From Pontiella desulfatans (GTDB lineage: Bacteria > Verrucomicrobiota > Kiritimatiellia > Kiritimatiellales > Pontiellaceae): a stretch of DNA of 64,000 nucleotides. The stretch spans positions 1,240,001 to 1,304,000 of the forward strand of contig NZ_CAAHFG010000002.1 in the NCBI RefSeq assembly GCF_900890425.1. Reading direction: 5' to 3'. A program made the translations under genes and the position numbers. Below the pieces are notes generated by a model, which saw only the letters and a program-made list of their open reading frames with translations, did not search any database and was not told where the DNA came from. Each line of letters begins with the position of its first letter. Within the stretch, counting starts at the first letter, position 1. This document shows positions 3,546 through 51,899 of the stretch, in pieces.

Positions 3546-4493
3546 TCAGCCTTCTTCCTTTTTCTTTGCTTTCTGCTCCTCCTGGTAATTGGCGTACCAG
3601 TCGAGCAGCTCCTGCGGCCAGGCAAAGGTCGGGGCGGTCGCCGGGTCGTAGCCTGCGAGATGAATGTTTTCCGACGCGGCTCTAGCGGCGGGTTTCGCAT
3701 ATTTCCAATCAATGTCGCCGAGCTGTTCCATGATGATATCGGCAAGAACCGGATCGTATTCGGTCAGCTCTTCGCGGGTGTTGACGTGGTTGTGGTCGTG
3801 GTCCGGTTCGCGGTTGTCGTCGAAGAACGACTGCACCCCCTCGGCCCAATATTCGTGGACGTTGTTGGCGGCGTATTTGTCTTTCCAGAGCCCCTTGGCC
3901 ATGGCGTCGTCGTAGGCCGCCACCAGCCTGGGCTTGAATTCGGGATCGAGGTCGACGAGCGCCATGTCCATGATGGCGTGCGCGAATTCGTGGACGAGGA
4001 TGCTTTCCTGATGGTAGGGGTCGCCGGGGTAGCGCAGCACGTTTTCCTCGCCGCAGCTGACAGCGGGGCGTTGATGGTTGGGGCCAAGGCCCCGTGCGCG
4101 GCGGTCCCAGAACTTCGCGGGTTTCATGTCGCTGTATTCCGGCATCTGCGTCACGAATTCGGTGTAGTCGATCAGCACGAAGCGGACGTGGTTTTCGGCC
4201 AGTTTCTGGATCGCGTCGGGGCGGTTTTGCAGCATTTGCTTGACGATGTAGGCCGTCTCCCTGAAGGCATGGTCATCCACCTTGTCGTTGCCGACAATGG
4301 TGAAGCCTCCCAGATCCAGCGCCTTGGTGTAGAAGGGATCCAGGTTTAGGTCGGCCACCATTTCTTGCGTTGGCGCCGCAACCTTGAGTTTCGCGATCTG
4401 TTCGGAAATCCCCGCGCCGTCGGCAACGGATGTTTGTGCAAGGACGGTTGCGACTATGATGCTGAAAGCAATGGAGAAATATCTCGTATTCAT
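3546..4493 (-). CDS. Exported HEFAH zinc metallopeptidase (gluzincin-like)
   Basis: 315 residues from the ATG at 4493, which overlaps the GH2 stop as ATGA; the frame is open 33 codons further but has no better start. A signal peptide ends near VADGA (about residue 27). HEFAH (168-172) supplies two zinc ligands and a catalytic Glu. E218 in EYWAEG is the likely third ligand, 46 residues on, a spacing like that of lethal-factor/Pro-Pro endopeptidase-like gluzincins. A charged tail (EEQKAKKKEEG) ends the protein. The translational coupling to GH2 suggests the two act on one glycosylated target (inference). The exact family is not certain, and specificity cannot be read from the sequence. Confidence 0.7.
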   Translation of the reverse strand: MNTRYFSIAFSIIVATVLAQTSVADGAGISEQIAKLKVAAPTQEMVADLNLDPFYTKALDLGGFTIVGNDKVDDHAFRETAYIVKQMLQNRPDAIQKLAENHVRFVLIDYTEFVTQMPEYSDMKPAKFWDRRARGLGPNHQRPAVSCGEENVLRYPGDPYHQESILVHEFAHAIMDMALVDLDPEFKPRLVAAYDDAMAKGLWKDKYAANNVHEYWAEGVQSFFDDNREPDHDHNHVNTREELTEYDPVLADIIMEQLGDIDWKYAKPAARAASENIHLAGYDPATAPTFAWPQELLDWYANYQEEQKAKKKEEG

Positions 4494-7400
4494 TCGTTGC
4501 CACTCGATTTGCCGCGTTCGAAATACCAGGTGGAGAAGCGCGAGGCGATGGACATTGTTTCCGCTTCCTGCGAGTCGAGCTTCATGACGCACATCTGGTC
4601 GGTCACATACATGAAGAGCTTGCCCACCCCCGCGTCGTCCGGATTTTCAAACACATCGTCGGGATAGTCGTACCACCAGTAGCCGTAGAGGTTCCTTTCG
4701 GTGCCGTCGAGGGTGAACACGCTTCCGCTTCCATCAAAATCAAATGTGCGAGGGGCCACCTTTTTGACTTCCCCCTTGCCGCGTTGGATGGCGGTGAGCC
4801 TCCATTTTCCGACGACCTCCTTGTCCTTGGGGCCGTTGAAGGTTTGGGGGTCGTCGCTCCCTTCGGTGTCGAAGTTCGGGGAGGTGATTCGCGGCAGCGG
4901 CCCCTTGGTGAACGTGCTTTCGGTCGTCAGGAAGGGCTTTCCGTTCTTCGCGATGATCGCCTTGATGGTTGCGGTTTCATTCAGTTCGAACGGTGCCGTG
5001 TATCTAACCGCCTTTGATCCGTTGACAGAATAGGTGATGTCGAACCTGGCGTCGTCAAGATCACCCCTCAACGCAATCCGGTTCATCTCGATGGCAACCG
5101 TAGTGCTCTCCGGAAAGAGGGTGCGCCCGAGGATGCCCGCGCCGCTTACTTCGATGGCGCCGTCCTGGTCGGTGCTTTGGAAGATGCCGAGCGAGAGGCC
5201 GTTGAAGGTTTTGCGGTGGGTTTCGCGGTGGGTGGTGACGTCGAGCGGGTCGCCGTTGTCGAAGCCGAGCAGTTCGACCGGGCCGTCGATCTGGTAATCG
5301 ATTCGGTTGCAGGCCCACGGCACAAAATTGCCGTTGGCATCCTTGATCGTTGTGGTGAGGTGGCTGATGTCGAACCGGTCGGCGGCCATGTTTGTATTGT
5401 CGGCGGCAAACTCGATGGTCGTCGGGGCGCCGGCGGTCTTGAATATCTTTTCGGCAACGGCCTTGCCGCCGCGGTAGCCGACGGCTTTCAATGTTCCGGC
5501 TTCGTAGGGCACCTTCCAGACGATGTCGAGCAGGTCGCGCGGCGGCTTTTTGCCGAGCGGCTTGCCGTTGAGGAAGAGTTCGACCTCTTCGCAGTTGGAG
5601 TAGGCCACCACGGGAATTCCGACGCCCTCCATGCCGGGGTGCGTCCAGTGCGGCAGGAGGTGCACCATCGGCTCGTCCGTCCATTGGCTCTGGTAGAAGA
5701 AATAGTGGTCTTTCGGGAAGCCGCACAGGTCGATGATGCCGAAGTTCCAGATCCGCGCCGGCCAGCTGCCGCCGCCGAACGAGGCTTCGCCGAGATAGTC
5801 GAACCCGGTCCAGCGGAACTCGCCCATGATCCACGGCGTTTCCTTGGTGCGCTTCCAGCAGGTGCGGGCAGTGATGCGCACGCCGCAGTTGTCGTACGAC
5901 GAGCTGTAGCGTTCGTGGCCATCGAAGAAAATCTGCTTGTCGCCGTAAGCCGTGAACGGATTGACCATGATGCTGCGGTTGCGCCACCAGGTGAGCGTGC
6001 GGTAGAAGCCGCGCGTCTGCAGCGTATGCGGAACCTCGGTCAGCACAACGGCCTTTTCGGGATTTTCCTCGTGGAACTTTTCGAGGATGCCCGGTGTGCC
6101 GCCCGGCGCGTTGAAGCCCGCCACATCCACGCCATAGAACAGGCTGCCACCGGTGGTCGGGCGCGTCGTGTCGTATTTCTTCACTTCGGCGCTAATGTTG
6201 TGCGTATCCTTGATGCCGGTTTCGTTGCCGATGCTGTACATGATGACCGCGGGATGGTTGCGGTCGCGCCGCACCCAGTCCTTCACATCGGTTTTCCACC
6301 ACTCCTTGAAATGGTGGCGGCCATAGTCGTGCTTGCTCTTCGCTCCCCAGCCGTCGAACAGCTCGTCCATCACCATGATGCCCATTTCGTCGCACAGGTC
6401 GTAGAAGATCGGTCGGCGCGGATTGTGGGAGACGCGGATGGCATTGCAGCCCATCTCCTTCAGGATCCGCAGGCGGCGGCGCAGCACCTTTTCGGGAATG
6501 GCCGACCCGACAAGCCCCGCATCGGAATGCTCGCACACCCCCTTGAGTTTGGTCGATTTCCCGTTCAGGAAGAAGCCCTCGTCCGGATCGAACCGCAGCG
6601 AGCGGATGCCGAAGCGCGTTTGGTTGGTGTCGATGGTCTTGCTCCCGATCTTGATGGAACTGACCAGGGTGTAGAGGGCGGACGATTCCGGCGACCAGAG
6701 CTCCGGGGTTTCGATGCGCAAACCAAGCGTTGCCACGGACGGTCCGTTGGCCGCCAACAGAACCGCTTGTTTCGTCGATGCCACTTGCTTGCCCGCCCTG
6801 TCGAGCACGATGGATTCCACGGTGGCTTTATGCGCCTTGGCGGTGCCGTTGTTCAGCGTGGCTTCGACCGCGACGGTAGCCTGTCCAGCTGTGATGGACG
6901 GCGTGGTGACGAACACGCCCCATTGGTCGAAATTGATTTTGTTTTTGGATATCAGGGTCACGTCGCCATAGAGGCCGCAACCGGGGTACCAGCGGGCGTT
7001 GGGCGCCTGTTGGTTATCCACCCGCACGGCCAGCGTGTTGCGGCCGGAGTTCAGTTCCTGCGAGATGTCGATATAAAAGCTGATGTAGCCATAGGGGCGT
7101 TCGCCGACTTTGTTGCCGTTTACCCACACCTCGGTGTTCATGAAGGAGGCATCGAAGAGGAGCAGGTATTGTTTCGCGGGATCAACCTCGTCGAGCTGGA
7201 AGGTCTTGCGGTACCAGCCGAGTCCGGTCGGCAGATAGCCGCCTTGGCCGCCGCTGGGATTCGTTTTTTCATAGGGGCCGAGGATCGACCAGTCGTGGGG
7301 GATGCGCACCGTTTCCCATCCGGAATCGTCGAAACCGGGTTCCGATGCCAGGTCGGAGCCGGACCGGCTGAACGTCCAGCCGAACACGAGTTTTTCGGTT

Positions 7401-7498
7401 TGCGGAACCCCGGTCGCCGGTGGTGCCGCCGATGCCAGAAGCGGCGCGCAGGCTGCGGCCAGCAGGCCAACCCCCCATGCTTTGAATTTACGACCCAT
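4490..7498 (-). CDS. Exported glycoside hydrolase family 2 (beta-galactosidase-like)
   Basis: 1002 residues with a signal peptide cut near ASAA (about residue 25). The order is a sugar-binding jelly-roll domain (about 35-200, with GLGWYRKTF and NARWYPGCGLYGDV), an immunoglobulin-like domain, a TIM barrel (about 305-600), and further beta domains of the kind seen in Bacteroides-type GH2 enzymes. E426 in YSIGNETG is the expected acid/base. E488 in LTEVPHTL aligns with the SETAS-type nucleophile, and WTGFDYLGE is also conserved. It is the first gene of a probable operon with the peptidase at 3546 and the two oxidoreductases. The start is set by the signal peptide and by the 29-bp motif placed 54 bases upstream. 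Beta-galactosidase is most likely, but GH2 also includes glucuronidases and mannosidases. Confidence 0.88.
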   Translation of the reverse strand: MGRKFKAWGVGLLAAACAPLLASAAPPATGVPQTEKLVFGWTFSRSGSDLASEPGFDDSGWETVRIPHDWSILGPYEKTNPSGGQGGYLPTGLGWYRKTFQLDEVDPAKQYLLLFDASFMNTEVWVNGNKVGERPYGYISFYIDISQELNSGRNTLAVRVDNQQAPNARWYPGCGLYGDVTLISKNKINFDQWGVFVTTPSITAGQATVAVEATLNNGTAKAHKATVESIVLDRAGKQVASTKQAVLLAANGPSVATLGLRIETPELWSPESSALYTLVSSIKIGSKTIDTNQTRFGIRSLRFDPDEGFFLNGKSTKLKGVCEHSDAGLVGSAIPEKVLRRRLRILKEMGCNAIRVSHNPRRPIFYDLCDEMGIMVMDELFDGWGAKSKHDYGRHHFKEWWKTDVKDWVRRDRNHPAVIMYSIGNETGIKDTHNISAEVKKYDTTRPTTGGSLFYGVDVAGFNAPGGTPGILEKFHEENPEKAVVLTEVPHTLQTRGFYRTLTWWRNRSIMVNPFTAYGDKQIFFDGHERYSSSYDNCGVRITARTCWKRTKETPWIMGEFRWTGFDYLGEASFGGGSWPARIWNFGIIDLCGFPKDHYFFYQSQWTDEPMVHLLPHWTHPGMEGVGIPVVAYSNCEEVELFLNGKPLGKKPPRDLLDIVWKVPYEAGTLKAVGYRGGKAVAEKIFKTAGAPTTIEFAADNTNMAADRFDISHLTTTIKDANGNFVPWACNRIDYQIDGPVELLGFDNGDPLDVTTHRETHRKTFNGLSLGIFQSTDQDGAIEVSGAGILGRTLFPESTTVAIEMNRIALRGDLDDARFDITYSVNGSKAVRYTAPFELNETATIKAIIAKNGKPFLTTESTFTKGPLPRITSPNFDTEGSDDPQTFNGPKDKEVVGKWRLTAIQRGKGEVKKVAPRTFDFDGSGSVFTLDGTERNLYGYWWYDYPDDVFENPDDAGVGKLFMYVTDQMCVMKLDSQEAETMSIASRFSTWYFERGKSSGNE

Positions 7499-7552
7499 AC
7501 ACTAGTCCACTGTTTAGTAAGCCGATAAAGCTACCAGAGCCCGGATCGCGGC

Positions 7553-7581
7553 GTCTTGTAGGATTTGGGCATGCCTGTGTA
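7553..7581 (-). promoter_or_regulatory. 29-bp upstream motif shared with the GH97 gene
   Basis: Read on the minus strand it runs TACACA, G, GCATGCC, C, then AAATCCTACAAGAC. The same motif with two changes lies at 19194-19222. In both places its 3' edge is exactly 54 bases before the ATG of a glycosidase gene. The 54-base spacer also shows matches at fixed positions (GTAG, then AT.GG). This looks like a regulator site or leader element controlling the GH2 operon. An alternative is a 13-codon reading frame starting MPKSYKT that ends at the TAG in the spacer of both copies. Confidence 0.6.
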
Positions 7582-7604
7582 TCTGGGATTAGGCGCGGCG
7601 CAGG

Positions 7605-7735
7605 GAAAAACCGTTAAAGCGTCAAAGGCATAGCTTCCGGATCCGAGCTGCAGTTTCAATCCTTGGTCGGCGGGGAGTTTTTCCACGCCCACCGCGTTGT
7701 CGATCGTTCGTCCGTTCTCGTTGACGGACTTCGCT
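7605..7735 (-). pseudogene. Remnant of a GH78 rhamnosidase 3' end
   Basis: Bases 7622-7669 are identical over 48 bases to 9123-9170, the 3' end of the intact GH78 gene. On the minus strand they encode the same DQGLKLQLGSGSYAF tail. Upstream of it about 20 codons are recognisable but carry an insertion relative to the intact copy. The rest of the gene is missing: the sequence runs straight into the duplicated end of the transposase element. It appears to be the scar of a duplication or deletion linked to that element. Confidence 0.65.
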
Positions 7736-7740
7736 TCAGG

Positions 7741-7932
7741 CGTGGTGGGGTCAGCCCTCGAATTAATACTTTACTTGCTTGGGCTGCTGTTTGAACTTCT
7801 CAGTTCTTCCAGGCTTTTTTCGATGTTCCCGGGCGTGGTGGGCGTGGTGGGGTCAGCCCTCGAATTAATACTTTACTTGATTGGGCGGCTGTTTGAACTT
7901 CTCAGTTCTTCCAGGCTTTTTTCGATGTTCCC
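7741..7932. repeat. Direct repeat of the transposon's left end (two 90-bp copies)
   Basis: 7741-7830 and 7843-7932 are near-identical (three differences seen), with a period of 102 bases. The second copy contains the end of the transposase gene and the element's terminal inverted repeat. The first is an orphan copy of the same end, carrying its own 29-base terminus at 7747-7775. It was probably left by one-ended movement or unequal crossing over. Confidence 0.75.
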
Positions 7933-8919
7933 GCACGCCTTCCTAAGTTGGGCATTGGCGGCCAGCCAAACGGGAAGCTTGCGAAGCTGGGCACTCACCG
8001 CTCCGCCCGTTCCCATACCCAGAAACACTGCTGCTCCGCGCTGGGAAATTCCTGCAAAGCGAATGAGCATGGAGGCTGCTATTGCCCGCAAGGGGCTGTT
8101 CCGGCGGCGTACCATGAATGACGTCGTTTCGACGCCCAATGCATTGGCTACGGTTTCCAGAACCGTATTGGATGGCAATGGTTCGGTGATGTGGCGGAAG
8201 GAAACGTCTTCCCGATTGCAGTCCTTGGAACGCTTGCCATGCAGGTGATCAATCCAAGTGCGAAAGGATTCTCCCCCGATGCTGCGAGGAGAGAGCTTTA
8301 GTAGTTCCTGAAATTCAATGTCGTCGTTTGCCAGGCCGGATTCCACGAAGGACCGATAGCGTTTAGGCTGTTCGTCAGCACTCCCCCCGGCCATTGCGAG
8401 GATGGGGCAGTAGTCCACGAATTCGTGCGCTCTCCGTTTGCCGATATAGCTTGGGAAACTGCTCCATCGGTAGGCGCGCAGTGTAGAGATCCGCTCCCGG
8501 TTCGGCTTGGCTCTTTCGCTTTGGGTTTGAACTGGATTCAGGTGGACATAACGTGACAACGCGAGAAGATACCGGTCTCCCTCGACAAGCTTTGCCTTGT
8601 AGCGACCATCGAGCAGGTGGCCATGTCGGTGATGCCGGCGATTGTAGTAGACGGTGTAGGCTGTGGATAATGCCTGCATGAACGTTGAGCAGTTTCCGGC
8701 AGGAGTCTCGAACACGAGATGGAAGTGGTTGGTCATCAGCACATACAGGTAAAGGCGTATCTGGTGGCGACCAACCCGTTCGCTAAGTTGATCAATAAAC
8801 CGTGCGCGGTCTTTGTCGTCAGCAAACAGAGGGCTCTGGTCAAACCTATGGTCGCCAATCATTCTGCATGAGACATGATAGATTGCTCCATGGAACTCAA
8901 CTCTCAATGACCTTGCCAT
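7873..8919 (-). CDS. HUH (Y1) transposase, IS200-like/RAYT type
   Basis: 348 residues. The N-terminus MARSLRVEFHGAIYHV is the usual start of Y1 transposases. The HUH metal motif is HFH in LMTNHFHLVFE (about residues 65-67), and a Tyr in the GRYKAKLV segment (about 106) is a likely catalytic residue. A C-terminal extension of about 170 residues holds a helix-turn-helix-like segment (NTVLETVANALGVETTSFM), a feature of REP-associated transposases. The protein should nick single-stranded DNA at hairpin ends through a 5' phosphotyrosine. No frameshift is seen, so it may be active. The codon use and the insertion beside a broken GH78 copy point to acquisition. Confidence 0.88.
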   Translation of the reverse strand: MARSLRVEFHGAIYHVSCRMIGDHRFDQSPLFADDKDRARFIDQLSERVGRHQIRLYLYVLMTNHFHLVFETPAGNCSTFMQALSTAYTVYYNRRHHRHGHLLDGRYKAKLVEGDRYLLALSRYVHLNPVQTQSERAKPNRERISTLRAYRWSSFPSYIGKRRAHEFVDYCPILAMAGGSADEQPKRYRSFVESGLANDDIEFQELLKLSPRSIGGESFRTWIDHLHGKRSKDCNREDVSFRHITEPLPSNTVLETVANALGVETTSFMVRRRNSPLRAIAASMLIRFAGISQRGAAVFLGMGTGGAVSAQLRKLPVWLAANAQLRKACGNIEKSLEELRSSNSRPIK

Positions 8920-8948
8920 GAAGGGTTTGTGTCATGATATTGCTTGAT

Positions 8949-8977
8949 AGTAAAGTATTAATTCGAGGGCTGACCCC
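8949..8977. repeat. Right terminal inverted repeat of the element
   Basis: It is the exact reverse complement of 7849-7877 and of the orphan end at 7747-7775. It lies 29 bases upstream of the transposase start and may also carry its promoter. Confidence 0.85.
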
Positions 8978-9109
8978 GATTGGGGCTACCCAAACGGGTG
9001 GCAGGGAAAACGCGAATCCCTCCGCGAACAGGACGTTCGGGAGGGGGTCTCCAGTCCCGTCTATGGCATCCGTACGGTCGAAATTGGAATTGCAACCCAC
9101 GGCAGTGCG

Positions 9110-11839
9110 TTAAAGCTTCACTTCAAAGGCATAGCTTCCGGATCCGAGCTGCAGTTTCAATCCTTGGTCGAGCGGTCGTCCGCCTTCGGTGACGGACGAA
9201 GCGGTGGGAAGCGTCAGCACGGCCGTGGCGCCGACCGGGACGCGCAGCTCCAGTTCAACGGTGTTGCCGGTGCGTTTCCAGTTGCAGACGACCGGGCCGT
9301 GGATGGTGCGGTGCGAGCATTCGACCCAGTCGAGCCCTTCGACAAAGCGGGGTTGCAGGTTGATGCGGTCGAAGCCGATCGCGTCCTTGGCGGGTTCAAT
9401 GCCGCCGAGCCAGTTGTAGAACCATTGGCTGACGGAGCCGAACATGGGATGGTTATGGCTGAAGGTGTTGTCGCTGAACGACCAATGCTCCCACAATGTG
9501 GTCGCTCCGTTTTCGAGCATGTGCCCCCAGCCGGGATACGCCTTCTTGTTGACCATGGCGTTGACCGTTTCCTCTTCGCCGTCGCGGCTCAGCGCATCGA
9601 GCATATAGAAGGTGCCGAAGATACCGGTCGTCAGGTGACCATCATGATTTTCGATATCCTTGAGCAGATGCGCCAGCGCCTTGGGGCGCACGGATTCCGG
9701 CAACATGTCGAGATAGAGCGCGAACGACTGTGAGTTCTGGAATCCCGAGCCGGCCACGCCCGTTTGCTGGTCGACGAAGTTTTCGATGTAGGCCGCTTTA
9801 ATGGTTTCGGCGAGCTCGGCGTATTCCCTGGCCTCGTCCTCTCTGCCGAGGATGCTTGCGAGGCGCGCAAGTATGCGGGCGGATTCGCAATAGAGCGGGG
9901 TGACCATCTGCGGCGTTTTATCCTTTTTGATCGCCTCGTGGTCGTGCAGGCCGTTTCGTACGATATGATCTTTGTTTTTGGAGCGGACGAGTTCGAACCA
10001 GCGTCTGCTGACGGCATACTGCTCCTCGATAATCCGGCGGTCGCCGTAGTAGCGGTGGAGCTGCGCCTGAAGATGCGGATGCGCCATGGCCCAGCCCACG
10101 CCGCAATACTGGATCCCAACGGAAGGCGCGGTATCGGTCAGCATGCCGTTCGGCAGGGCGCTGTCGGCCCAGTCGCGGGTGGCCTTGGGATAGAAGGCCG
10201 ACAAGTCGAAGTTCATCATGAAGGCGTCCGACGAGGTGACCAGGTCGCCGCCGTAGCCGAAGCGCTCGCGGTGCGGGCAGTCGGACTGCACACCAAAGAG
10301 GTTGCTGAGGAACGTCCACTGAACCATCTTCTGGATGCGGTTGAACAGGTCGTTGGAACAGTTGAACGAGCCGATGGGTTCGACGGCCGAATTCATGCGC
10401 TGGCCTTCGATGTCGTCCAGCGCCGGCTTGGAGGGCAGCCCGGTCAGCTCGATATAGCGGAAGGCGTGGAAGGTAAACTGCGGCGTGTAGGTTTCGCCTC
10501 CGCCGCGGGCAACATAGGTGTCCTCCTGCCAGGCGATGGGCGGAGCGCCGGGAACCTGCGGCTTGCCGGATTTGTTTTTGATCTGCCCGCAGACGCTGGT
10601 CATCGGGTTGAGCGAGCCGTCTTCATGGACCAGCTCGCCGTAGCGCATCTTGATCTGCGTGCCGGCGGGTACGTTGAACTTAAAGCTCGCCCATCCGCCA
10701 AAGTTCTGGCCCATGTCGACGATATAAACGCCCTTGGCCGGCTCCATGATTCCCACGGGTTTGAACGTGGAGGTCACCTTAATCGCCGCGTTCGGCTGAA
10801 CCATCAGTTGGCCTTCGGGGGCGGGCGCGGTTTTGGCGGTCGCCCAGCTGCCGTCGTCCAGTCCGGGCGCGTCCCAGCCGGGGATGGCCTTGCGGGCATC
10901 GACCTTTTCGCCGAGATAAATGTTGTTGCGCAGGATCGGGCCTTCCGCAACCTTCCACGAAGCGTCGCTGACGATCGACTCGTTCGATCCGTCGGCATAG
11001 TTGATCTGCAGGCGGGCGATGAACTGCGGCCGCCCAACGGGCAGGTTTTCGCGCAGGTTTCGGCGGCCCCACAGGCGCAGGGGCAGGGGATTGTACCAGC
11101 CGTTGCCCAGCGAGACCCCCAGGCAGTTTTCTCCGGATGAAAGTTGCTTCGTCACATCGAAGGTGGAATAAAAGACGCGTTTATCCGGGCGCGTCCAAAG
11201 CGGATCCAGCTGTTGGTCGCCAACCTTTTCGCCGTTCAGCGACGCGCGGTAGTAGCCCAGCGCGGTGATATAGAGCCGCGCGGATTCAACCTTGCCCGAG
11301 AGCTTGAAGGGTTTGCGGAAGAGCGGCGCCGGATCGTCCTTGAAAAAGTCCTCGTCCTGCGTCGGGTTGGCCTTGCCGTCGTTGATCCACTCGGCCTGCC
11401 AGTCCGAAGCCTTCATCAGGCCCATTTCCCACGAGGAGGGGGCCGACCAGTCCGACGGCGTTCCTTCGGAGTCCCAAACCTGCACCATCCAGTAGCCGCG
11501 CTGGCCGGATGCCAAGGGTTTCCCTTCATACACGACACCCGCACTTTGGGCGGATTCAATCTTTCCGCTGTCCCACAGATCGCCATCGATCTTGCCGAGC
11601 CCTTCGGCCGTTGAGGAGACCACGACACGGTAGGCGGTCTGTTGGTCGCCGCGCGTTCCCGATTGCAGCACCCAGCCGAGGCGCGGCTGCGGGTGGTCGA
11701 TGCCCATCGGTTGGTCGCGATATTCGCAGTGCAGGCGCGAAACCTTCATGGTGGAAAAGGGTTTCACCGTGCTTCCTGGAAAAGCGGCCACGGGAAATAG
11801 CAATACGGCGCACAGGCCGATATTTGATTTAAAGCTCAT
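9110..11839 (-). CDS. Exported alpha-L-rhamnosidase, GH78
   Basis: 909 residues with a signal peptide (about 1-23, ending near FPGS). The N-terminal beta domains contain the family's LHCEYRDQPMGIDHPQPRLGW and GYYRASLNGEKVG segments. The (alpha/alpha)6 barrel (about 480-830) carries QSDCPHRERFGYGGD, the acidic motif in which GH78 enzymes hold their general acid. A C-terminal beta domain ends at KLQLGSGSYAFEVKL. It is an inverting enzyme releasing terminal L-rhamnose from polysaccharides or glycoconjugates, most likely in the periplasm or outside the cell. The gene is downstream of the sulfatase at 11951 with 111 bases between, including a palindrome. Part of its 3' end is duplicated at 7605-7735. 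Confidence 0.9.
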   Translation of the reverse strand: MSFKSNIGLCAVLLFPVAAFPGSTVKPFSTMKVSRLHCEYRDQPMGIDHPQPRLGWVLQSGTRGDQQTAYRVVVSSTAEGLGKIDGDLWDSGKIESAQSAGVVYEGKPLASGQRGYWMVQVWDSEGTPSDWSAPSSWEMGLMKASDWQAEWINDGKANPTQDEDFFKDDPAPLFRKPFKLSGKVESARLYITALGYYRASLNGEKVGDQQLDPLWTRPDKRVFYSTFDVTKQLSSGENCLGVSLGNGWYNPLPLRLWGRRNLRENLPVGRPQFIARLQINYADGSNESIVSDASWKVAEGPILRNNIYLGEKVDARKAIPGWDAPGLDDGSWATAKTAPAPEGQLMVQPNAAIKVTSTFKPVGIMEPAKGVYIVDMGQNFGGWASFKFNVPAGTQIKMRYGELVHEDGSLNPMTSVCGQIKNKSGKPQVPGAPPIAWQEDTYVARGGGETYTPQFTFHAFRYIELTGLPSKPALDDIEGQRMNSAVEPIGSFNCSNDLFNRIQKMVQWTFLSNLFGVQSDCPHRERFGYGGDLVTSSDAFMMNFDLSAFYPKATRDWADSALPNGMLTDTAPSVGIQYCGVGWAMAHPHLQAQLHRYYGDRRIIEEQYAVSRRWFELVRSKNKDHIVRNGLHDHEAIKKDKTPQMVTPLYCESARILARLASILGREDEAREYAELAETIKAAYIENFVDQQTGVAGSGFQNSQSFALYLDMLPESVRPKALAHLLKDIENHDGHLTTGIFGTFYMLDALSRDGEEETVNAMVNKKAYPGWGHMLENGATTLWEHWSFSDNTFSHNHPMFGSVSQWFYNWLGGIEPAKDAIGFDRINLQPRFVEGLDWVECSHRTIHGPVVCNWKRTGNTVELELRVPVGATAVLTLPTASSVTEGGRPLDQGLKLQLGSGSYAFEVKL

Positions 11840-11864
11840 CGATTAACTCCATGGATCTAATTTA

Positions 11865-11936
11865 ACCCCAGAGGGCTCTGAGGTGCAGGGGTTGGATTTT
11901 ATTTCTGATCCTCTGTGTCTCCGTGTCCTCAGTGGT
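11865..11936. repeat. CACAGAG-family palindrome
   Basis: The left arm (ACCCCAGAGGGCTCTGAGG) is imperfectly complementary to the right arm (CCTCTGTGTCTCCGTGTCC...AGTGGT). It sits between the sulfatase stop and the GH78 start on the minus strand. The arms match the family at 19243, 33085, 51662 and 53544. It is possibly an intercistronic terminator or a mobile palindrome. Confidence 0.5.
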
Positions 11937-11950
11937 GGAATAACAAATCG

Positions 11951-13420
11951 TTACGGGCGCCAGGGTTGCTTGCCGTTCTTTTCCCGGAGGAACTTGGCAT
12001 CGACCGTCTTATACCAGGCATGCAGCTTGGCCCGCATCTGCTTAACCTTTTCCGGGTGTTGCGCGGCGATGTCGTTCTGTTCGCCGATATCGTCCTTGAG
12101 GTTGTGGAGGGTGACGCGCCCATCTTCGTAGTTCTCGAACAGCTTGTAGTCGCCAACGCGGATGGCACCGCCGGGAATGCCTCCCTGGTTGCTGTAGTGC
12201 GGGTAGTGCCAATACAGCGGACGCTTTTCAAGCAACTCGCCTTTCAGCGCGGGCAGCAGATCGACGCCGTCGATCTCGTGTTGCACTTCAGCACCCGCCG
12301 CCGAGGCGAGGGTGGGGAAGAGGTCGATCGAACAAATCAACTCGTCGCTGACGGCGCCGGGTTGGGTGATGCCGGGATAGCGGATGATCCACGGTTCGCG
12401 GATGCCGCCCTCATAGACCCAGCCCTTGCCACCACGCAGCGGCAGGTTGCTGGTCGGTGAGCCTTCGGAGGTGGACAGGCCGCCATTGTCGGACGTGAAG
12501 ACCACGATGGTGTTGCCGGCCAGCCCGGATTCTTCGAGCTGCTTGAGCACGACGCCGACCGCTTCGTCCATGGCTTCGACCATGGCGGCATAGACGGCAT
12601 GCTTTTGCAGGAGGCGCACCTCGCGCTTTTTCTCCACCGGCCAGACCTGTTCTTCCGCGCCAAATTCATTGCCCGGAACCTGCCCGGCTTTCTTTTCATA
12701 TTTTTCCACCAGGTCGGGGCGGCCCATCAGCGGGGTGTGGACGGAGTAGAACGCCAGGTAGGCCAGGAAGGGGCCTTCCTTGTTTGCCTGGATGAACTTG
12801 GCCGTTTCGCGCGCCAGACGGGCCGGGAGATGTTCGCCCTCCGGGCTCTCCTCCTTGATCTGCGGATTTTCGAAGGGCGCGAAATAGCCTTTTCCGGAAT
12901 AGGGACCGCCCGCTTTGTGCCCGCCGATGTTGATATCGAAACCGCGGTTTTGGGGCCAATATTCCTCGGTGGGGCCCAGATGCCATTTGCCGGCGAAAAA
13001 GGTGGCATAGCCTTTGGCCTTCAGCGCTTGTGCGAGCGTGATCTCTTCCAGCGGCATCAGGTGCTGCATTTCCGCGCCTTTATACGTCGCGGGGCGGTTG
13101 CCCCCGAAAAAGTTCGTCGCCTCCGCGCGGGTGGGATATTTGCCGGTCATCAGGCTGTAGCGCGTCGGCGAGCAGACCGGGTTGGCGGCATAGCCGTCGG
13201 TGAAGCGCATGCCCGACTTTGCCAGCCTGTCGATGTTCGGCGTATCGTAGAAACAGTCGGGGTTGTTTGCGCCGATATCCATGTAGCCGAGGTCATCAAC
13301 CAGAAAGACCACCACATTCGGCGGAGTCTGCTCTTCCACCTGCGCCATGCTGGAGGCCAATAGGGGAAGCGCCGCAACCAAGCCCATCGCACCGCGTTGG
13401 CACTGTTTCAATCCGTTCAT
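11951..13420 (-). CDS. Exported S1-family sulfatase, Cys type
   Basis: 489 residues from the ATG at 13420, which has GGAAGG/AGGAAACAGG upstream; the frame is open 41 codons further but that part is not protein-like. A signal peptide ends near SSMAQ (about residue 26). VVFLVDDLGYMDIG holds the calcium-binding acids. C83 in CSPTR is the residue converted to formylglycine, TGKYPT follows it, and GKWHLG and FTSDNGG are the later S1 signatures. It hydrolyses sulfate esters on sugars or peptides. Activation needs a sulfatase-maturing enzyme, which is not in this window. It sits 28 bases after the SGNH hydrolase and so is probably co-transcribed with it. The S1 subfamily and substrate cannot be assigned by eye. 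Confidence 0.92.
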   Translation of the reverse strand: MNGLKQCQRGAMGLVAALPLLASSMAQVEEQTPPNVVVFLVDDLGYMDIGANNPDCFYDTPNIDRLAKSGMRFTDGYAANPVCSPTRYSLMTGKYPTRAEATNFFGGNRPATYKGAEMQHLMPLEEITLAQALKAKGYATFFAGKWHLGPTEEYWPQNRGFDINIGGHKAGGPYSGKGYFAPFENPQIKEESPEGEHLPARLARETAKFIQANKEGPFLAYLAFYSVHTPLMGRPDLVEKYEKKAGQVPGNEFGAEEQVWPVEKKREVRLLQKHAVYAAMVEAMDEAVGVVLKQLEESGLAGNTIVVFTSDNGGLSTSEGSPTSNLPLRGGKGWVYEGGIREPWIIRYPGITQPGAVSDELICSIDLFPTLASAAGAEVQHEIDGVDLLPALKGELLEKRPLYWHYPHYSNQGGIPGGAIRVGDYKLFENYEDGRVTLHNLKDDIGEQNDIAAQHPEKVKQMRAKLHAWYKTVDAKFLREKNGKQPWRP

Positions 13421-13448
13421 CCTGTTTCCTTCCCCGATATGTTCTGTA

Positions 13449-14186
13449 TCAATTCCCTGATGTTCTAGCTTCAAGGGCGGTGCGGATCGAGTCCGCCACC
13501 TGTTTGCCGAGCGTTGCATATCCGGTCTTCTTGAAATGGACATTGCCCGGGGCCGTAAGTTGATCCTTGATCGTGTTGGAGAGGGCGTGGAGATCGTTGA
13601 TCGCGATGCCGTGCTGTTTCATGATCGTTTCGGCGATCGCGTTGTATTTCACCTCGTCGCCCACAAAGCGCCCGGCTTCTTCTTCCGGCACGACGGTTGT
13701 GGAAGCCCAGATCAGGACGGCGCCCGTTTTTTCCAGTCGCTGCACCAGTGCCTCCAGGTTCTTTTCATACTGCTTCGGCGGCACAGCCTGGGTGCCGTTT
13801 TTCTTATCGCGGTTGCCCTGCGTCTTGGACTCGGGGTGGCGGTAGCACAGATCCCACAGGCCCCAGTTGAAATGGATCACGTCCCATTCCGTATTGCCCA
13901 GCCACGGGTCGATCTTCTGCAACCCCCGGGGGGTGTCGCCGCAGTTTTCCTTGACCCGCCTTACGTTGGCCACGCCCTGGAGCTCCTCAATGACGGGCTT
14001 GGTGTAGCCGATCGAAATCGAATCGCCAATGATCAGCACGTTGGGCAGGCCCTTCTGCATCTTCGACGCTGCCGTGATTCCGCCCTGGTCCGCCTTGGGG
14101 GTGTGGAAGTCCGAATTCGCCAATGCGGAGCCCATGCAGCATGCGAAGGTTAATAGGGCGGCGTGTTTGATTTGGTTCATGTTCAT
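13449..14186 (-). CDS. Exported SGNH/GDSL hydrolase
   Basis: 245 residues with a signal peptide (cut near SALANS, residue 23-25). GDS at 54-56 in LIIGDSISIGY provides the nucleophile. Block III-like HFNWGLWDLC follows, and a C-terminal GNVHF supplies the likely catalytic His. Members are carbohydrate esterases or lipases; those beside sulfatases often deacetylate glycans. GGAAAG lies 6 bases before the ATG. It is the first gene of a probable two- or three-gene unit with the sulfatase (28-base gap) and perhaps GH78. A hairpin terminator isolates it from the PEP-CTERM gene upstream. Confidence 0.8.
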   Translation of the reverse strand: MNMNQIKHAALLTFACCMGSALANSDFHTPKADQGGITAASKMQKGLPNVLIIGDSISIGYTKPVIEELQGVANVRRVKENCGDTPRGLQKIDPWLGNTEWDVIHFNWGLWDLCYRHPESKTQGNRDKKNGTQAVPPKQYEKNLEALVQRLEKTGAVLIWASTTVVPEEEAGRFVGDEVKYNAIAETIMKQHGIAINDLHALSNTIKDQLTAPGNVHFKKTGYATLGKQVADSIRTALEARTSGN

Positions 14187-14311
14187 CGTTGCTTTCCGGG
14201 TTCAAATGGTTGCCTTGCATTGTAGCGGCGCTTCCCGGAAGCGCAAGCGGCTCTTGGAGCCGGTACACTGTGTTTTTCCCGATGCACCGTCCTCGGTGCC
14301 ATGGACAATAA

Positions 14312-14337
14312 AAAACCCCGGATGCAACCGGGGTTTT
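14312..14337 (-). terminator. Rho-independent terminator
   Basis: A perfect 10-bp stem (AAAACCCCGG pairing with 14328-14337) has a 6-base loop. Read on the minus strand it is followed by a T6 run. It lies 20 bases beyond the stop of the PEP-CTERM gene at 14358-15077 and before the SGNH hydrolase. Confidence 0.85.
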
Positions 14338-14357
14338 CGTTTCGCAGGTGGACGTTC

Positions 14358-15077
14358 CTAGATGCTGAAGCGGCGGCGAATGAACATGACCGCTCCGCCG
14401 AACAGGGCGAACAGCCCCAGCGTCGCCGGTTCCGGAATGACGGTGCCTTGAACATAGTAATGGATGTTTCGAGTGGAGGGGGTTGTATGCGCGGTGGACG
14501 TGATTGCAACACGTCCGCCTGCAGAGCCTTCGTAGTGCTGGAATCGATCAGGATTCGATGTTGAGGATCGGTCATAGGTCATCAAGAATCCAAAATCGCT
14601 GTCCTCGCTGACTTCAAGTGCAGTGGCTAGCTGGAAGGTCACATAGTTGTTGTCGGCAAACGTTCCATTCAAAGTGAACGCCTCGGTATAAAGGGGGCTC
14701 ACGGTCGTATCCACAAAATAATTGCTTCCATCGATGCTGGTGGAGTGGCCTGTTCCTGTCCCCCATTGTGCTGCCGTTCCTTCGAAGATACGCAATGTGA
14801 GTATGTCGTTGGCATACGTCTGATTAACATCTTTCCGGATCGTGATCGCCGTAATCTTATATCCCGTGCCGGTGCCGTCGGCCAAGGAAAACAACTGCCC
14901 GCGTGCGTGGTTGTCGTTGGCATCTTCGTCGAAGAGCGAAGTGTTGATGCCCCCGCCGGCCGAAGACAAAATATCGCTCGTGGGGGCGCTGGTGGAAAGG
15001 GTCACGTCCGCATAGGACGCACTCAGGGCGACCAGGGCCGTTGCAACCGCAATCCCTGTAATTTTCATTGTTTTCAT
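14358..15077 (-). CDS. PEP-CTERM-anchored exported protein
   Basis: 239 residues. A signal peptide (about 1-23) is followed by an all-beta-looking domain of roughly 190 residues rich in Thr, Ser and Asp. The C-terminus has the sorting tail: VIPEPATLGL, a hydrophobic span (FALFGGAVMFI), then RRRFSI. The PEP motif, membrane span and basic end are recognised by exosortase in bacteria that make exopolysaccharide. AAGGAG lies 5 bases before the ATG. It stands alone, with a strong terminator downstream and a 170-base upstream region. The function of the beta domain is unknown. Confidence 0.85.
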   Translation of the reverse strand: MKTMKITGIAVATALVALSASYADVTLSTSAPTSDILSSAGGGINTSLFDEDANDNHARGQLFSLADGTGTGYKITAITIRKDVNQTYANDILTLRIFEGTAAQWGTGTGHSTSIDGSNYFVDTTVSPLYTEAFTLNGTFADNNYVTFQLATALEVSEDSDFGFLMTYDRSSTSNPDRFQHYEGSAGGRVAITSTAHTTPSTRNIHYYVQGTVIPEPATLGLFALFGGAVMFIRRRFSI

Positions 15078-15247
15078 GGTTTCTCCTTATTTTCTTCCTG
15101 CTTGCGTGGCGTTCGGCAGATCCAGCAGGAACCTACCAATTGCCTAGGATCAAGCTAGCAGGGGCGGCGTACAGCGTATTGCACGATCAGGGCGTCACTG
15201 TGTACAATATCACGCAAGGGGCCGGGTGGCGGTGTTCAACGAAACCA

Positions 15248-17152
15248 TTAGCCCATACCCGGGAAATAGAGGTCGATGATGTCCTGCAACGCGGCTTGTG
15301 CCGCCTTGCCATGCTCTTCGTTATATTTCGGCAACTGAACCTCATACCAACCCGGGCCAAACAACGGGTTGTTGTTCCGTCTGTTCAATCCCTTTGGATA
15401 GACGAGATGGGTGTGTTGCCGGAACGCATCGTTGTCCATCGGGATGGCCGTTTTGTAGTGTTGGAGTCGCTCGAGGATTTTTCTAGAAGGCTTGAGCCCC
15501 TCCTTTTTCATGGCTGCGGCCAAGGCGGTCGGGTGTTCCGGTTGGATGCCCCAGAAATGAATCAACGGCGTCAGGTCGGCCCCGGCCGCTTTCGACAGGC
15601 GCAGGATGCGGTCGTCGGTTGGGTCGGCATTGTTCGGAACCTTGTCGCCTTCCTTCCAGTTTGCGTTGTCCGTGTGCCAGAATCGGCTGAGCGCCTCCCA
15701 GCCAAACAGGTTGGCGATCTCGATATATTTGCCGAAGCCGCGATGCTGGTATTTCATTTCGTCGCCGGGTTTGTTGGAATGGTCCATCTCCTTGCCTTGG
15801 CGGAAGTTCTCGGTGACCATCCACATGGCGGCGATGTCCTCCATGGTGAGCTGGTCCATGTCCATGACCGCGTGGCCGTAGGCCTTGTCGAGGCTCCAGC
15901 CGAACTTCATGTTCAGGATCGCGGCAGTCGGCAGGTTGACGAGTGCTTCGACCTCGCCACGGAACTTCGAGCAAAACTGGGAATGGCCCACTTCGTGGAA
16001 CACCGTCCAGTCGGCGTGCTGCGGCCCCTTCACCATCCACGTGTGCCGGCACTCCCCGGGCTTGTTGGCGTTGTAGGGATAGTTCGACTGCGGATAGCCG
16101 GGAAAGTTGGCGCCGCCGCGCATGTTCACATCCGGCTGGGTGTAGAGGACGGTTTTCGAGCGTACGAGCGGGTGCCCGAATAGTTCCGACACGGCGTCCA
16201 TTGCCTGGTCAAAGTCGGCCATTAGCGCGACGGGGTCTTCAACCTGGTCGAGCCAGGCCGTTGGAATCTGCATCATGAATTTGTCGGTCTCGAAATCGGC
16301 CCACGGCGCCGGATGGGTTCTCTCGGTCTTGTTCCACGCATCGAGCGTTGTCAGGTCGAAGCTGCGCGCCGAGAAAAACGGTGCGCGGACCACGTTCTTC
16401 ATCGCAAGGGTAACCACGCCCGCGTCCGCTTCGTAGGGCACTTCGAGATAGATCCCTCCACCCAGCGGATTGGCGATCAGCGTGTCCCGTTTCTTGATCG
16501 GGTAAACGATGGAAACCCGGTCGAGCCGCTTGATGGACGGTTTTTTCGACAAATCCCAGGAATGCGCGCCAACGCGAATGGAATAGCCCGTGTCCACCAG
16601 GGCCGAAGGGACCCGCACCACCGCGATGTCGCCGGGGGCGAGATAGCAACCGGTCGGGCGGCGGGCGGGGCTGTCCTGCCCGCTGACGGGTTGGCCCCAC
16701 GCGGTCGTTTGCGAGGCGTTGACCTTCGCGGTTTCGACCGCGCTCGGGTTTGCCGGCGACTTGACGGCTCCGGGGAAGTAGGCCGAGGTTTCGAATGCTG
16801 CGCCATCGAGCAGGCTCTTGTGTTTTTCCAGATTTTCGGAGGTGTAGGTTTTATCGATCAAGCCCTGCTGGATGGCGATCAGGGCATAGTGGAGCTCCAT
16901 TCCGTCCTTGGGGCTGCGTGGCATTCCGTTGCGGGTGGCGCCGTTGATGAAGAGCGGTCCGACTTCGGTGTCGTATTGCCCGATCAGCTTGAACGCCGCA
17001 GTGATGGCGGGCCCATTGTTCTCCAGGCGGTCGAGGTTTGCCGCGATCGCTTCCGCTTTTTCCAGCAGCTGGTCGGTTTTGCCGGCCAAGGCTCCGGTTG
17101 CCAATGCGAGGCCGATTCCCAGCAGAAGGGATGTCCCGTGAAGTGGTTTCAT
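15248..17152 (-). CDS. Exported M60-like (enhancin/mucinase) zinc peptidase
   Basis: 634 residues from the ATG at 17152; AAGGAG lies about 6 bases before it. A signal peptide ends near GALAG (about residue 23). TGCYLAPGDIAVVRVP resembles the beta domain preceding the M60 catalytic core. HEVGH at 386-390 in WTVFHEVGHSQF gives the zinc ligands, with a downstream acidic residue in FRGEVEALVN as the third. The C-terminal helices (IEIANLFGWEALSRFW) fit the accessory domain. M60 members cut heavily O-glycosylated proteins such as mucins. It is the second gene of an operon with GH97, 10 bases after its stop. The pairing again links a peptidase with a glycosidase. Confidence 0.82.
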   Translation of the reverse strand: MKPLHGTSLLLGIGLALATGALAGKTDQLLEKAEAIAANLDRLENNGPAITAAFKLIGQYDTEVGPLFINGATRNGMPRSPKDGMELHYALIAIQQGLIDKTYTSENLEKHKSLLDGAAFETSAYFPGAVKSPANPSAVETAKVNASQTTAWGQPVSGQDSPARRPTGCYLAPGDIAVVRVPSALVDTGYSIRVGAHSWDLSKKPSIKRLDRVSIVYPIKKRDTLIANPLGGGIYLEVPYEADAGVVTLAMKNVVRAPFFSARSFDLTTLDAWNKTERTHPAPWADFETDKFMMQIPTAWLDQVEDPVALMADFDQAMDAVSELFGHPLVRSKTVLYTQPDVNMRGGANFPGYPQSNYPYNANKPGECRHTWMVKGPQHADWTVFHEVGHSQFCSKFRGEVEALVNLPTAAILNMKFGWSLDKAYGHAVMDMDQLTMEDIAAMWMVTENFRQGKEMDHSNKPGDEMKYQHRGFGKYIEIANLFGWEALSRFWHTDNANWKEGDKVPNNADPTDDRILRLSKAAGADLTPLIHFWGIQPEHPTALAAAMKKEGLKPSRKILERLQHYKTAIPMDNDAFRQHTHLVYPKGLNRRNNNPLFGPGWYEVQLPKYNEEHGKAAQAALQDIIDLYFPGMG

Positions 17153-17162
17153 TATGTGCTCC

Positions 17163-19139
17163 TTAAGATTTGCTGCGTTTAATGATGGCGGCATAGCCGC
17201 CGCCGGGCGCGAGTTTTAGCGTTAGCGTCGATGATGCATCGACGGTCGATTCGCCGATGGTGGTGTCGGTGGCTTCGGTGGCGGCGTTGGGGCCGTCCTT
17301 CCAGGAGTTCAATTGAAAGTCGCCGTTGCCGAGAAAACCGAGTTTGCACTCCAGCTCGCGCGGCGTCCAGTCGGTCATGGCGCCGATGTACCAGGTGTCG
17401 CCCTTGCGGCGGGCGACGGCCACAGCCTTGCCGACCTCCGCATGCAGCACCACTGTTTCGTCCCAGGTGGTCGGCACCGCCGACAGGAACGGCATGCACC
17501 CGGGATTCCGCCGGTATTTGGTCGGGGTGTCGGCCAGCATTTGCAGCGGGCTGAGATAGACCACATACATGGCGAGCTGATGGCAGCGGGTGCCCTGGCT
17601 GCCGGGGTTCCGGCCGACCGCGCGGAAGGTTGCTTCCGTATAGTTGTCCATGGCGCCGGGGGTATAGTCCATCGGACCGGCCACCATTCGGGTGAAGGGC
17701 AGCAGCACCGCCATGCCGGGCGTCGCGTTCTTGCTCCACTTGTTTTGTTCGAGCCCCAGCACCGACTCGTGCGTCAGCACGTTGGGATAGGTGCGCTGGA
17801 GTCCGGTCGGCTTCGAGCCACCGTGGAAATCCACCAGCAGTTGGTGGTTCGCGGCCACGATGGCGATCCGCTCGCAAAAGTCCATCATCACCTGGTCGTC
17901 GCGTTGCATGAAATCGACCTTGATTCCTTTGATGCCCCATGTTGAAAACTGTTCGAACGCCGCATCGAAATTTTGTTCGAGCGCGGCGGAGGTCATCCAG
18001 AGAATGACACCGACGTTTTTGGATTCGCCATGTTCAACCAGCTCCGCGATGTTCAGCGCGGGAACGACGTGCAGCAGGTTGTCCGGCCCTTTCTCGCTCC
18101 ATCCTTCGTCGAGGATGATGTATTGCAGGTCGTTGGCGGCGGCAAAGTCGATGAAGTGCTTGTAGGTTTCCTGGTTGATTCCTGCCTTGAAGGGCATGTC
18201 GGTAATGTTTCTATAGTTCCACCAGTCCCACGCCACCTTGCCCGGCTTGATCCACGCCGTGTCGTCCAGCCGGCAGGGGTCGGCCAGGGTGTGGAGCATG
18301 GTCGAGGTCAGCAGTCCGGCATCGTCGGCAACCACGAAAGCGCGCCATGGAAAGCTGCGGGTGCCGGGGCATTTCGCCAGGAAATCGCTCCGTTCCGCCA
18401 CCGTCAGGTCGCGGTCGCCCTTTAGTTCGGTCTTGGCCGGATAGGGCGGGAAGCTGGCTTTGAGGGCGGTGCCTTCCGCCCCTTCGATCCATAGCCCCGG
18501 ATAGTGTTGCACATTGACGTCGGTCAGCAGGAGCTTCCGACCACCGTCCAGCTCGAGCAGAACGGGCGGGCTCGTGGGCTGGCCTATCGGGGCCGCGGAG
18601 ATGGGAAGGCGACCTAAGCGCCGTTCCTGGTGGGAAAAGTAGCCCTTCTTTTCGGGCGTCGGGTAGTAGGCGGGGTAGTCATCCGCAAATTCGAAGGCCA
18701 ATTCTTCGCCGTTAACGGTCACCTCGCCCCGGTCGATCCGGCTTTCCCAGCGGAACGCCGCGCCGTCGTTATGGACGCGCACCCGCAAGTTCACCGGGCC
18801 ATCGAACCGGATCACGGTTTCGTTGCACTGCTCCCGGAACCGGCTGCTTATGCCGGGGATCACCGGAACGGTTTCCCGGTCGATGGTGCGCGTCTCCGTT
18901 TTGTTCAAGCCGCCGCTGCCGGGGTATTCAACACCGTCGATGGTGATCGACATCGGGATGCGATCGATCACGCTTTTACCGTCCACGGCCAGTTTCCCGC
19001 AGATGTTTGCACCCTCCGCCAAAATGCTGAAGACGATCGTTTCATCCGGCGAGACCGTCCGCACTTCCTGCGCCTGAACCAACGTGGCGGCGAAAACGGT
19101 AGTTGCCGTTATGGCCCAAATGCCCTGTATCATTCCCAT
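17163..19139 (-). CDS. Exported glycoside hydrolase family 97, retaining type
   Basis: 658 residues from the ATG at 19139; the ATG two codons later is possible, but the shared upstream motif fits 19139 best. A signal peptide ends near VQAQ (about residue 24). The N-terminal beta-sandwich is about 25-270. The barrel begins at WDWWNYRNITDMPFK, and D409 in IKVDFMQRDDQ aligns with the Asp nucleophile of the retaining alpha-galactosidase branch. THESVLGLE follows, and a C-terminal beta domain ends the protein. An alpha-galactosidase or alpha-glucosidase role follows, in the periplasm or outside. It is the first gene of an operon with the M60 peptidase. Upstream lie the 29-bp motif shared with GH2 and then a palindromic repeat. 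Confidence 0.88.
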   Translation of the reverse strand: MGMIQGIWAITATTVFAATLVQAQEVRTVSPDETIVFSILAEGANICGKLAVDGKSVIDRIPMSITIDGVEYPGSGGLNKTETRTIDRETVPVIPGISSRFREQCNETVIRFDGPVNLRVRVHNDGAAFRWESRIDRGEVTVNGEELAFEFADDYPAYYPTPEKKGYFSHQERRLGRLPISAAPIGQPTSPPVLLELDGGRKLLLTDVNVQHYPGLWIEGAEGTALKASFPPYPAKTELKGDRDLTVAERSDFLAKCPGTRSFPWRAFVVADDAGLLTSTMLHTLADPCRLDDTAWIKPGKVAWDWWNYRNITDMPFKAGINQETYKHFIDFAAANDLQYIILDEGWSEKGPDNLLHVVPALNIAELVEHGESKNVGVILWMTSAALEQNFDAAFEQFSTWGIKGIKVDFMQRDDQVMMDFCERIAIVAANHQLLVDFHGGSKPTGLQRTYPNVLTHESVLGLEQNKWSKNATPGMAVLLPFTRMVAGPMDYTPGAMDNYTEATFRAVGRNPGSQGTRCHQLAMYVVYLSPLQMLADTPTKYRRNPGCMPFLSAVPTTWDETVVLHAEVGKAVAVARRKGDTWYIGAMTDWTPRELECKLGFLGNGDFQLNSWKDGPNAATEATDTTIGESTVDASSTLTLKLAPGGGYAAIIKRSKS

Positions 19140-19193
19140 AAGCCTTTCTCGCTTCGATTTAACCCATGAATCTACAGAAACAACGTTCGGCGG

Positions 19194-19222
19194 GTCTTGT
19201 AGGATTTTGGCATGCATGTGTA
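19194..19222 (-). promoter_or_regulatory. 29-bp upstream motif, second copy
   Basis: It matches 7553-7581 at 27 of 29 positions, and the distance to the ATG (54 bases) is the same. It would control the GH97-M60 operon together with the GH2 operon. Confidence 0.6.
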
Positions 19223-19242: not shown

Positions 19243-19312
19243 ACCACCCGCTGCGGTAGAGGACACTGGCACAGAGGATTAGAATGCTCTGTGTCTCTGG
19301 GTTCTCTGTGGT
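19243..19312. repeat. CACAGAG-family palindrome
   Basis: The left arm (ACCACCCGCTGCGGTAGAGG...CACAGAG) pairs imperfectly with the right arm (CTCTGTGTCTCTGGGTTCTC...GTGGT). It matches 33085-33156 and the inverse of 53544-53615 in both arms. It lies in the 355-base gap between the GH97 start and the SRP RNA. I see nothing else in the rest of that gap apart from the 29-bp motif and a short GC-rich inverted stretch near 19376-19440. Confidence 0.6.
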
Positions 19313-19494
19313 AATTCCATGCCCGGATCTAGGTTTGTTTGCCCGTGTTTCGGATGCCCCTTTGGCCCCGGTTCGTTGTTCGGGGAACCGCGCCAAATCG
19401 TTCTGCGCGGGATTTCCGGCCTGTCGGGCTTGCCTTGCCAAGGCGGCCTTAGTATCTTCCCGTTTCTTCCCTTGAACCGGGAGGACAACGAGAC

Positions 19495-19630
19495 GGTTCC
19501 CGGCAAGCGTGTTGAACGTTGGCATCCGGATGACGAGATCGGGCGAACCCCGTCAGGGTCGGAAGGCAGCAGCGGTAAACCATGTTTTTCGGGTGTCTGG
19601 AAGCGCCGGCGGGAGCGCTGGCCGGGAGCC
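19495..19630 (+). ncRNA. ffs: Signal recognition particle RNA (small bacterial type)
   Basis: The core at 19549-19574 (CCGTCAGGGTC, GGAA tetraloop, then GGCAGCAGCGG) is the conserved domain IV that binds Ffh: the GGAA loop is closed by GTC/GGC and the asymmetric CAG/AGCAG loop is intact. The ends 19495-19510 and 19615-19630 pair over about 16 bp with a few G-T pairs, closing a rod of about 136 bases. The length fits the small SRP RNA without an Alu domain. The position directly before dnaX is a common bacterial arrangement. End points are approximate. Confidence 0.85.
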
Positions 19631-33042: not shown

Positions 33043-33226
33043 ACTACTATCCGTCAATTTCTTGTTTTCCTGGCAAATTTTTTCACCACCCGCTGCGCTA
33101 GAGGACTCTGAGGCACAGAGGGTTAGGATGCTCTGTGTCTCTGAGATCTCTGTGGTAAAAAATCCGTGTCTTCGGTGTTCATCTGTAGCTTCAAATAATT
33201 TGGTTGCGGCACCGCTGCTCCAGGTC
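33041..33226. repeat. 186-bp dispersed repeat (module B), inverse of 53475-53660
   Basis: It is nearly the reverse complement of 53475-53660, with a few mismatches. It contains a CACAGAG-family palindrome at 33085-33156. It also carries a TTCATCTGTAGCTTCAAATA stretch. Confidence 0.9.
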
Positions 33227-51661: not shown

Positions 51662-51724
51662 ACCACAGAGGGCACTGAGGAGCGGGATTGCTATATTTCT
51701 CTGTGCCTCCGTGTCCTCTGTGGT
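51662..51724. repeat. CACAGAG-family palindrome
   Basis: ACCACAGAGGGCACTGAGG pairs with CCTCCGTGTCCTCTGTGGT over 19 bases, with a G-T-type mismatch or two and a loop of about 25 bases. It is the cleanest member of the family. Confidence 0.8.
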
Positions 51725-51755
51725 GAGACCATTCAAGCTAAGTTCCTATCAGATA

Positions 51756-51887: not shown

Positions 51888-51899
51888 GTCCTCAGTGGT

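Follow-up and report, generated by a model that had tools for sequence, protein, structure and literature searches.

A predicted AraC-type operator and promoter shared by dispersed glycan and glycoprotein degradation genes of Pontiella desulfatans

Why do two glycosidase genes of different families carry the same 29-bp motif upstream of their start codons? In the window, a 64,000-nucleotide stretch of the Pontiella desulfatans F1 genome (contig NZ_CAAHFG010000002.1, positions 1,240,001 to 1,304,000), copies of the motif occur at 7553-7581 and 19194-19222, both on the minus strand, and are identical at 27 of 29 positions, as the preliminary description of this DNA had reported. We conclude, with a probability of roughly 0.85, that the motif is the predicted operator and promoter through which a PAS-AraC activator would control a dispersed sulfated-glycan and glycoprotein regulon.

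The first copy (TACACAGGCATGCCCAAATCCTACAAGAC, 7553..7581, minus strand) precedes a GH2 glycosidase gene (4490..7498, minus strand), the end of which is overlapped by a gene for an M90-like, gluzincin-type protein (3546..4493, minus strand; the Pfam M90 match is weak and below the curated cut-off). This predicted activator operator scores 46.0 with a profile built from other genomes only (shuffled maximum 15.1), and column conservation in an alignment of 42 sites identifies an extended -10-like box, TGG-TAGCTT, at 7528..7536 (minus strand). The second predicted operator (TACACATGCATGCCAAAATCCTACAAGAC, 19194..19222, minus strand) was also recovered by the other-genomes-only profile. Its -10-like box is TAGATT (19169..19174, minus strand), lacking the TG extension at the exact position, and it precedes a GH97 gene (17163..19139, minus strand) that is directly followed on the same strand by an M60 peptidase gene (15248..17194, minus strand). 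The likely ATG lies 54 bases past each copy, at 7498 and 19139. This equal distance had been considered meaningful, but it does not extend to the remaining three tight copies in the genome, where the distances to the likely ATG are about 68, about 30-45 and about 103 bases. Thus, the shared 54 is a coincidence, and the constant is the inner spacing to the -10-like box. The additional GTAG match in the spacer is real and corresponds to that box.

The window had been described as holding only two copies. A third, more divergent predicted operator and promoter, TACACAGTGACGCCCTGATCGTGCAATACG...TGCTAGCTT, is present at 15147..15206 (minus strand; 31.3 with the other-genomes-only profile), 70 bp upstream of the start at 15077 of a PEP-CTERM protein gene (14358..15077, minus strand). 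Downstream on the same strand are genes for a GDSL-type hydrolase (13449..14135), a sulfatase (11951..13420) and a GH78-type rhamnosidase (9110..11839, minus strand), the last a putative operon member judging by direction and order. Each same-strand run (GH2/M90-like; PEP-CTERM/GDSL/sulfatase/GH78; GH97/M60) has one site.

Other elements were identified in the surrounding DNA. Between the genes for rhamnosidase and GH2 lies a Y1-type (IS200-like) transposase gene (7873-8919, minus strand), accompanied by a direct repeat of 93 bp (7739-7933) and an exact 48-bp copy of the 3' end of the rhamnosidase gene (7622-7669 = 9123-9170). This region suggests an insertion with local duplication. A dispersed intergenic repeat rich in 'cacagag...ctctgtg...ctctgtggtaa' occurs at 19268-19314, 33112-33158, 51680-51726, 51855-51901 and 53561-53607, one copy being just upstream of the second site. 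No Rfam family matched at the motif; the sole match in the window is the bacterial small SRP RNA gene (19517-19614, plus strand), shortly upstream of the gene for the DNA polymerase III gamma/tau subunit.

A strict pattern derived from the motif matches twice in the window, compared with no matches in 100 dinucleotide shuffles, and five times in the 8,658,305-base genome, where the reversed pattern has no match. The five tight copies have the common form TACACA-N4-TGCC-N2-AATCCTACAAG, followed by an unrelated spacer and TAnnTT-like letters. A sequence-only profile built from these copies gave further sites, including that at 15147-15206, and was extended iteratively to profiles of 14 and then 42 sites. 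The 14-site profile found 27 matches at E<=10 in the P. desulfatans genome, many of them within C1:1.118-1.215 Mb, and matches in other genomes of the genus. With the 42-site profile there are 26 sites at E<=1.3e-4 and the next match has E=0.92, although E-values of training sites are partly circular because the models are iterative. The other-genomes-only profile and seven distant genomes (below) are free of this circularity. The former, a simple two-block matrix trained on 16 sites from other genomes and applied to 286 kb of the P. desulfatans genome, recovered all 26 sites (lowest score 26.7) and added a 27th at 25.0 (L092:2757, minus strand, upstream of a SASA esterase gene); the best score in five shuffled copies was 15.1. 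Thus, the small regulon that had been proposed is replaced by one of about 27 sites, a number that may omit a few weak sites since the genome was searched by region and through first-look filters.

The preliminary description had also called for a scan of related genomes. The strict pattern has no match in 387 further genomes of the phylum, and wider profiles detected sites in relatives. A species-private motif, suggested by the strict search alone, reflects the limit of that pattern, as the wider profile found sites beyond the species. Three one- or two-mismatch matches inspected in the genus appear to lie within coding sequence. We also considered whether an RNA-guided or spacer-like copy exists elsewhere; the sole extra exact occurrence of ATCCTACAAGAC in the genome appears to lie in a coding frame.

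The iterative-profile consensus is TACAC-N5-TGC-N8-TACAAGAC-N16-TGnTAnnnT. Judged by information per column across the 42 sites, TACA is invariant at two places 21 bp apart, with TGC between them, and the starts of TACAC and TACAA are 21 bp apart in almost all sites. T-rich letters precede the second TACA and GAC(G) follows it; then come about 16 variable bases and TGnTAnnnT, with a distance from the end of TACAAGAC that varies by at most 1-2 bp. The further sites found with the first profile show that AAAATCC in the middle of the motif marks a sub-type only, the general form being TACAC-N5-TGC-N8-TACAAGAC. The forms of the second box found in distant genome G557 (TGTTACAAT, TGATACAAT and TGTTATTAT) are nearer TATAAT, supporting the reading of TGnTAnnnT as the probable extended -10 of a sigma-A-type promoter. 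The column pattern resembles an AraC-type operator that abuts the -35 region of such a promoter: the direct-repeat contacts are two helical turns apart, and the predicted operator overlaps or abuts the -35 at a fixed distance from the -10. Downstream of GAC, the promoter-proximal part of a second half-site is unconserved, which leaves the exact AraC footprint uncertain. Hairpins seen by eye in the 18-bp spacer differ in position from copy to copy, and stems of 4 bp would, by a rough estimate, arise by chance in such stretches.

A codon-usage gene caller places all 38 examined sites between genes, with the next downstream gene on the same strand; 7.4% of random placements have this arrangement. 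In other families, 14 of 14 sites have a same-strand gene next; 13 of these sites lie outside called genes, and the remaining one overlaps the predicted start of the regulator gene next to it. The motif is therefore neither absent elsewhere nor scattered at random in coding sequence. The first or next genes encode glycosidases of families GH95 (three), GH29 (two), GH2, GH97 and GH43, and a GH141-domain protein. Also present are several sulfatases, SASA esterases, M60 and M90-like proteins, 3-keto-disaccharide hydrolase, Gfo/Idh oxidoreductases, xylose-isomerase-like proteins and sugar symporters. M60, sulfatase-modifying-factor-like and Gfo/Idh genes follow sites in G557; thus the functional theme recurs in a distant genome. 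The suggestion that glycan and peptide degradation are controlled together gains support from sites before GH2 plus M90-like and GH97 plus M60 genes, from sulfatases, fucosidases and esterases behind sites elsewhere, and from the M60 gene in G557.

Approximately 55 AraC-type genes are encoded in the genome, and two of these, for 257-aa PAS-AraC proteins that are 71% identical, end directly before a site (C1:72404-73174, site at C1:73178; C1:1214237-1215007, site at C1:1215011). In each case the adjoining site would serve the next operon. The proteins have PAS_4 and HTH_18 domains; the linked protein carries the C-terminal double HTH of the AraC/XylS family (PF12833/PF00165, E 3.9e-24, residues 172-250), and its relatives in the PDB include the DNA-binding domains of AraC, MarA and SoxS. 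The site begins 0-15 bp past the stop codon in 13 of 13 members of one PAS-AraC clade, which forms one side of a tree branch with support 94/89. Within this clade the same stop-codon-then-site order occurs in G586 and G597, from other families, and in at least five genomes 3-keto-disaccharide hydrolase is encoded by the first gene of the operon behind the regulator. In the genus, matches to the 14-site profile (E<0.02) are present in 10 of 10 genomes with the clade and in 0 of 18 without it. In a scan of the class, seven other-family genomes outside the training set (G557, G364, G410, G462, G463, G163, G367) have matches adjoining PAS-AraC homologs of 39-43% identity, most of these matches being in the intergenic region between divergent genes. 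Other genomes of the class also gave weak matches (E 0.004-0.02), about half of which are away from the regulator and may be due to chance. The upstream intergenic sites, their fixed spacing and the linkage to a PAS-AraC gene support the shared regulator site of the preliminary description.

The genus also contains a second clade of PAS-AraC paralogs (58-64% identical, e.g., C5:404975). It has the same domain order and length but differs from the site-linked clade in having no site past the stop codon in any of the six members examined; thus, it presumably has its own operator. Past the stop codon of this second clade in several genomes (L121-L123) is a different, recurring stretch that looks like a promoter, with TTCACTTT, about 20 bases and TAAGTT before an ATG, possibly the operator of that clade.

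We propose a sigma-A-type promoter with an extended -10 (TGnTAnnnT), with the operator directly upstream of its -35 region and overlapping it. Two AraC-type DNA-binding domains would contact TACAC and TACAA on one helix face, fitting the 21-bp spacing of two helical turns, with TGC about midway. The PAS domain would sense a signal, probably a small sugar-derived metabolite, and signal-bound PAS-AraC would recruit RNA polymerase at about 27 dispersed promoters, turning on as one regulon the genes for sulfatases, fucosidases and other glycosidases, together with those for esterases and for peptidases directed at glycoproteins.

Activation is indicated by one feature, the position of the site: like the sites of activators, it precedes the -10 and touches only the -35. 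The same predicted operator and regulator could instead act in repression, or paralogs could compete at subsets of sites, which we regard as unlikely. There are two paralogs, and the site middle differs between scattered copies and the C1:1.118-1.215 Mb cluster: the five scattered copies (window, L006, L007, L008) are of the CCAAAATCC sub-type, including that near one regulator gene (AraC1, L006:9405-10178), and those of the main cluster (L086-L091), near the other (AraC2, L091:2238-3008), are CTTTTTTTC. These sub-types perhaps mirror the paralogous regulators, although the site downstream of AraC1 itself is not of the CCAAAATCC type, so the division into sub-types by paralog is not clean.

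It is improbable that a different DNA-binding protein owns the site, with the PAS-AraC gene a mere neighbor in the regulon. Linkage differs from binding and many other AraC-type genes are available, but the linkage is to one PAS-AraC clade across families and in both orientations, and presence or absence of sites matches that clade. An ECF sigma factor could formally read the two conserved blocks as a -35 (TACAAGAC) and a -10 (TAGC); however, at about 29 bp the conserved upstream block well exceeds an ECF -35 in length, and in a distant clade the second block drifts toward TATAAT and has a TG extension.

The mini-ORF proposed earlier, a conserved leader of 13 codons (MPKSYKT...) acting by attenuation or translational coupling, is very hard to sustain. 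An ATG frame does end at TAG after 13 codons in both window copies and a few others, but that TAG is the -10 box, 13 of 38 sites have no ATG, and lengths range from 2 to >37 codons. Neither start codon, frame nor peptide is conserved: residues change and DNA contacts stay fixed. Copies of a mobile or repeat element lying before genes by chance can be dismissed almost entirely, given that, despite five near-identical copies and nearby repeats and a Y1-type transposase gene in the window, the middle 16-17 bp are unrelated between conserved flanking blocks, all 38 sites are in promoter orientation, and sites persist beside the same gene in other families.

The genes adjoining the regulator point to a product of 3-keto-sugar or deoxy-sugar metabolism as the putative inducer of PAS-AraC. 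A tentative extension, on balance doubtful, is that a single cytoplasmic PAS-AraC sensor reading a 3-keto-sugar (Gfo/Idh, PF06439) product, e.g., a keto-fucose derivative, is, in Kiritimatiellota, the master switch of a dispersed regulon of sulfatases, fucosidases and peptidases, in place of the locus-by-locus regulators that other degraders of polysaccharides use, the regulator-operator pair being conserved across the class and the regulon greatly enlarged in this species. P. desulfatans F1, with a genome of 8.6 Mbp, and P. sulfatireligans are reported to grow on fucoidan and to have many peptidases, for which the authors proposed glycoprotein substrates (PMC7356697). The regulator is present with only 1-2 good sites in G027 (putative P. 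sulfatireligans); so not every member of the genus has a large regulon. The P. agarivorans strain did not grow on fucoidan or fucose (PMC10880615), and regulator and site are both present in G001 (putative P. agarivorans). Given the few sites in G027 and the pair in G001, a "fucoidan regulon" is only a hypothesis. A literature search for a regulator or promoter of fucoidan or sulfated-glycan genes in Kiritimatiellota found none.

Sulfatases and glycosidases for sulfated algal glycans are very numerous in marine Kiritimatiellota, and how these are coordinated is now a testable question, with a candidate regulator gene, a precise operator-promoter consensus and a set of about 27 predicted target promoters. 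Peptidases are linked to the same predicted switch, and regulon prediction becomes possible in uncultured relatives.

The proposed mechanism is of a known kind; the regulator, operator and regulon are new. AraC/XylS-family activators act at class II promoters, e.g., AraC at araI1-I2, XylS, RhaS and MelR. In common with these, the PAS-AraC system has an AraC HTH (PF12833), predicted control of sugar catabolism, a regulator gene beside a target operon, and a predicted asymmetric, direct-repeat-like operator with a 21-bp period that abuts the -35. It differs in its sensor, a PAS domain rather than the cupin-type arabinose-binding domain of AraC, and in having one site type at many dispersed promoters, an extended -10 and a site directly after the regulator stop codon. 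Glycan utilization in Bacteroidota is regulated by SusR, hybrid two-component systems and ECF sigma/anti-sigma pairs. These also coordinate glycosidases, sulfatases and peptidases for complex glycans, and the hybrid two-component systems likewise end in an AraC HTH. Unlike them, the PAS-AraC protein has no membrane sensor (257 aa, PAS and HTH only), and one regulator type would serve scattered loci.
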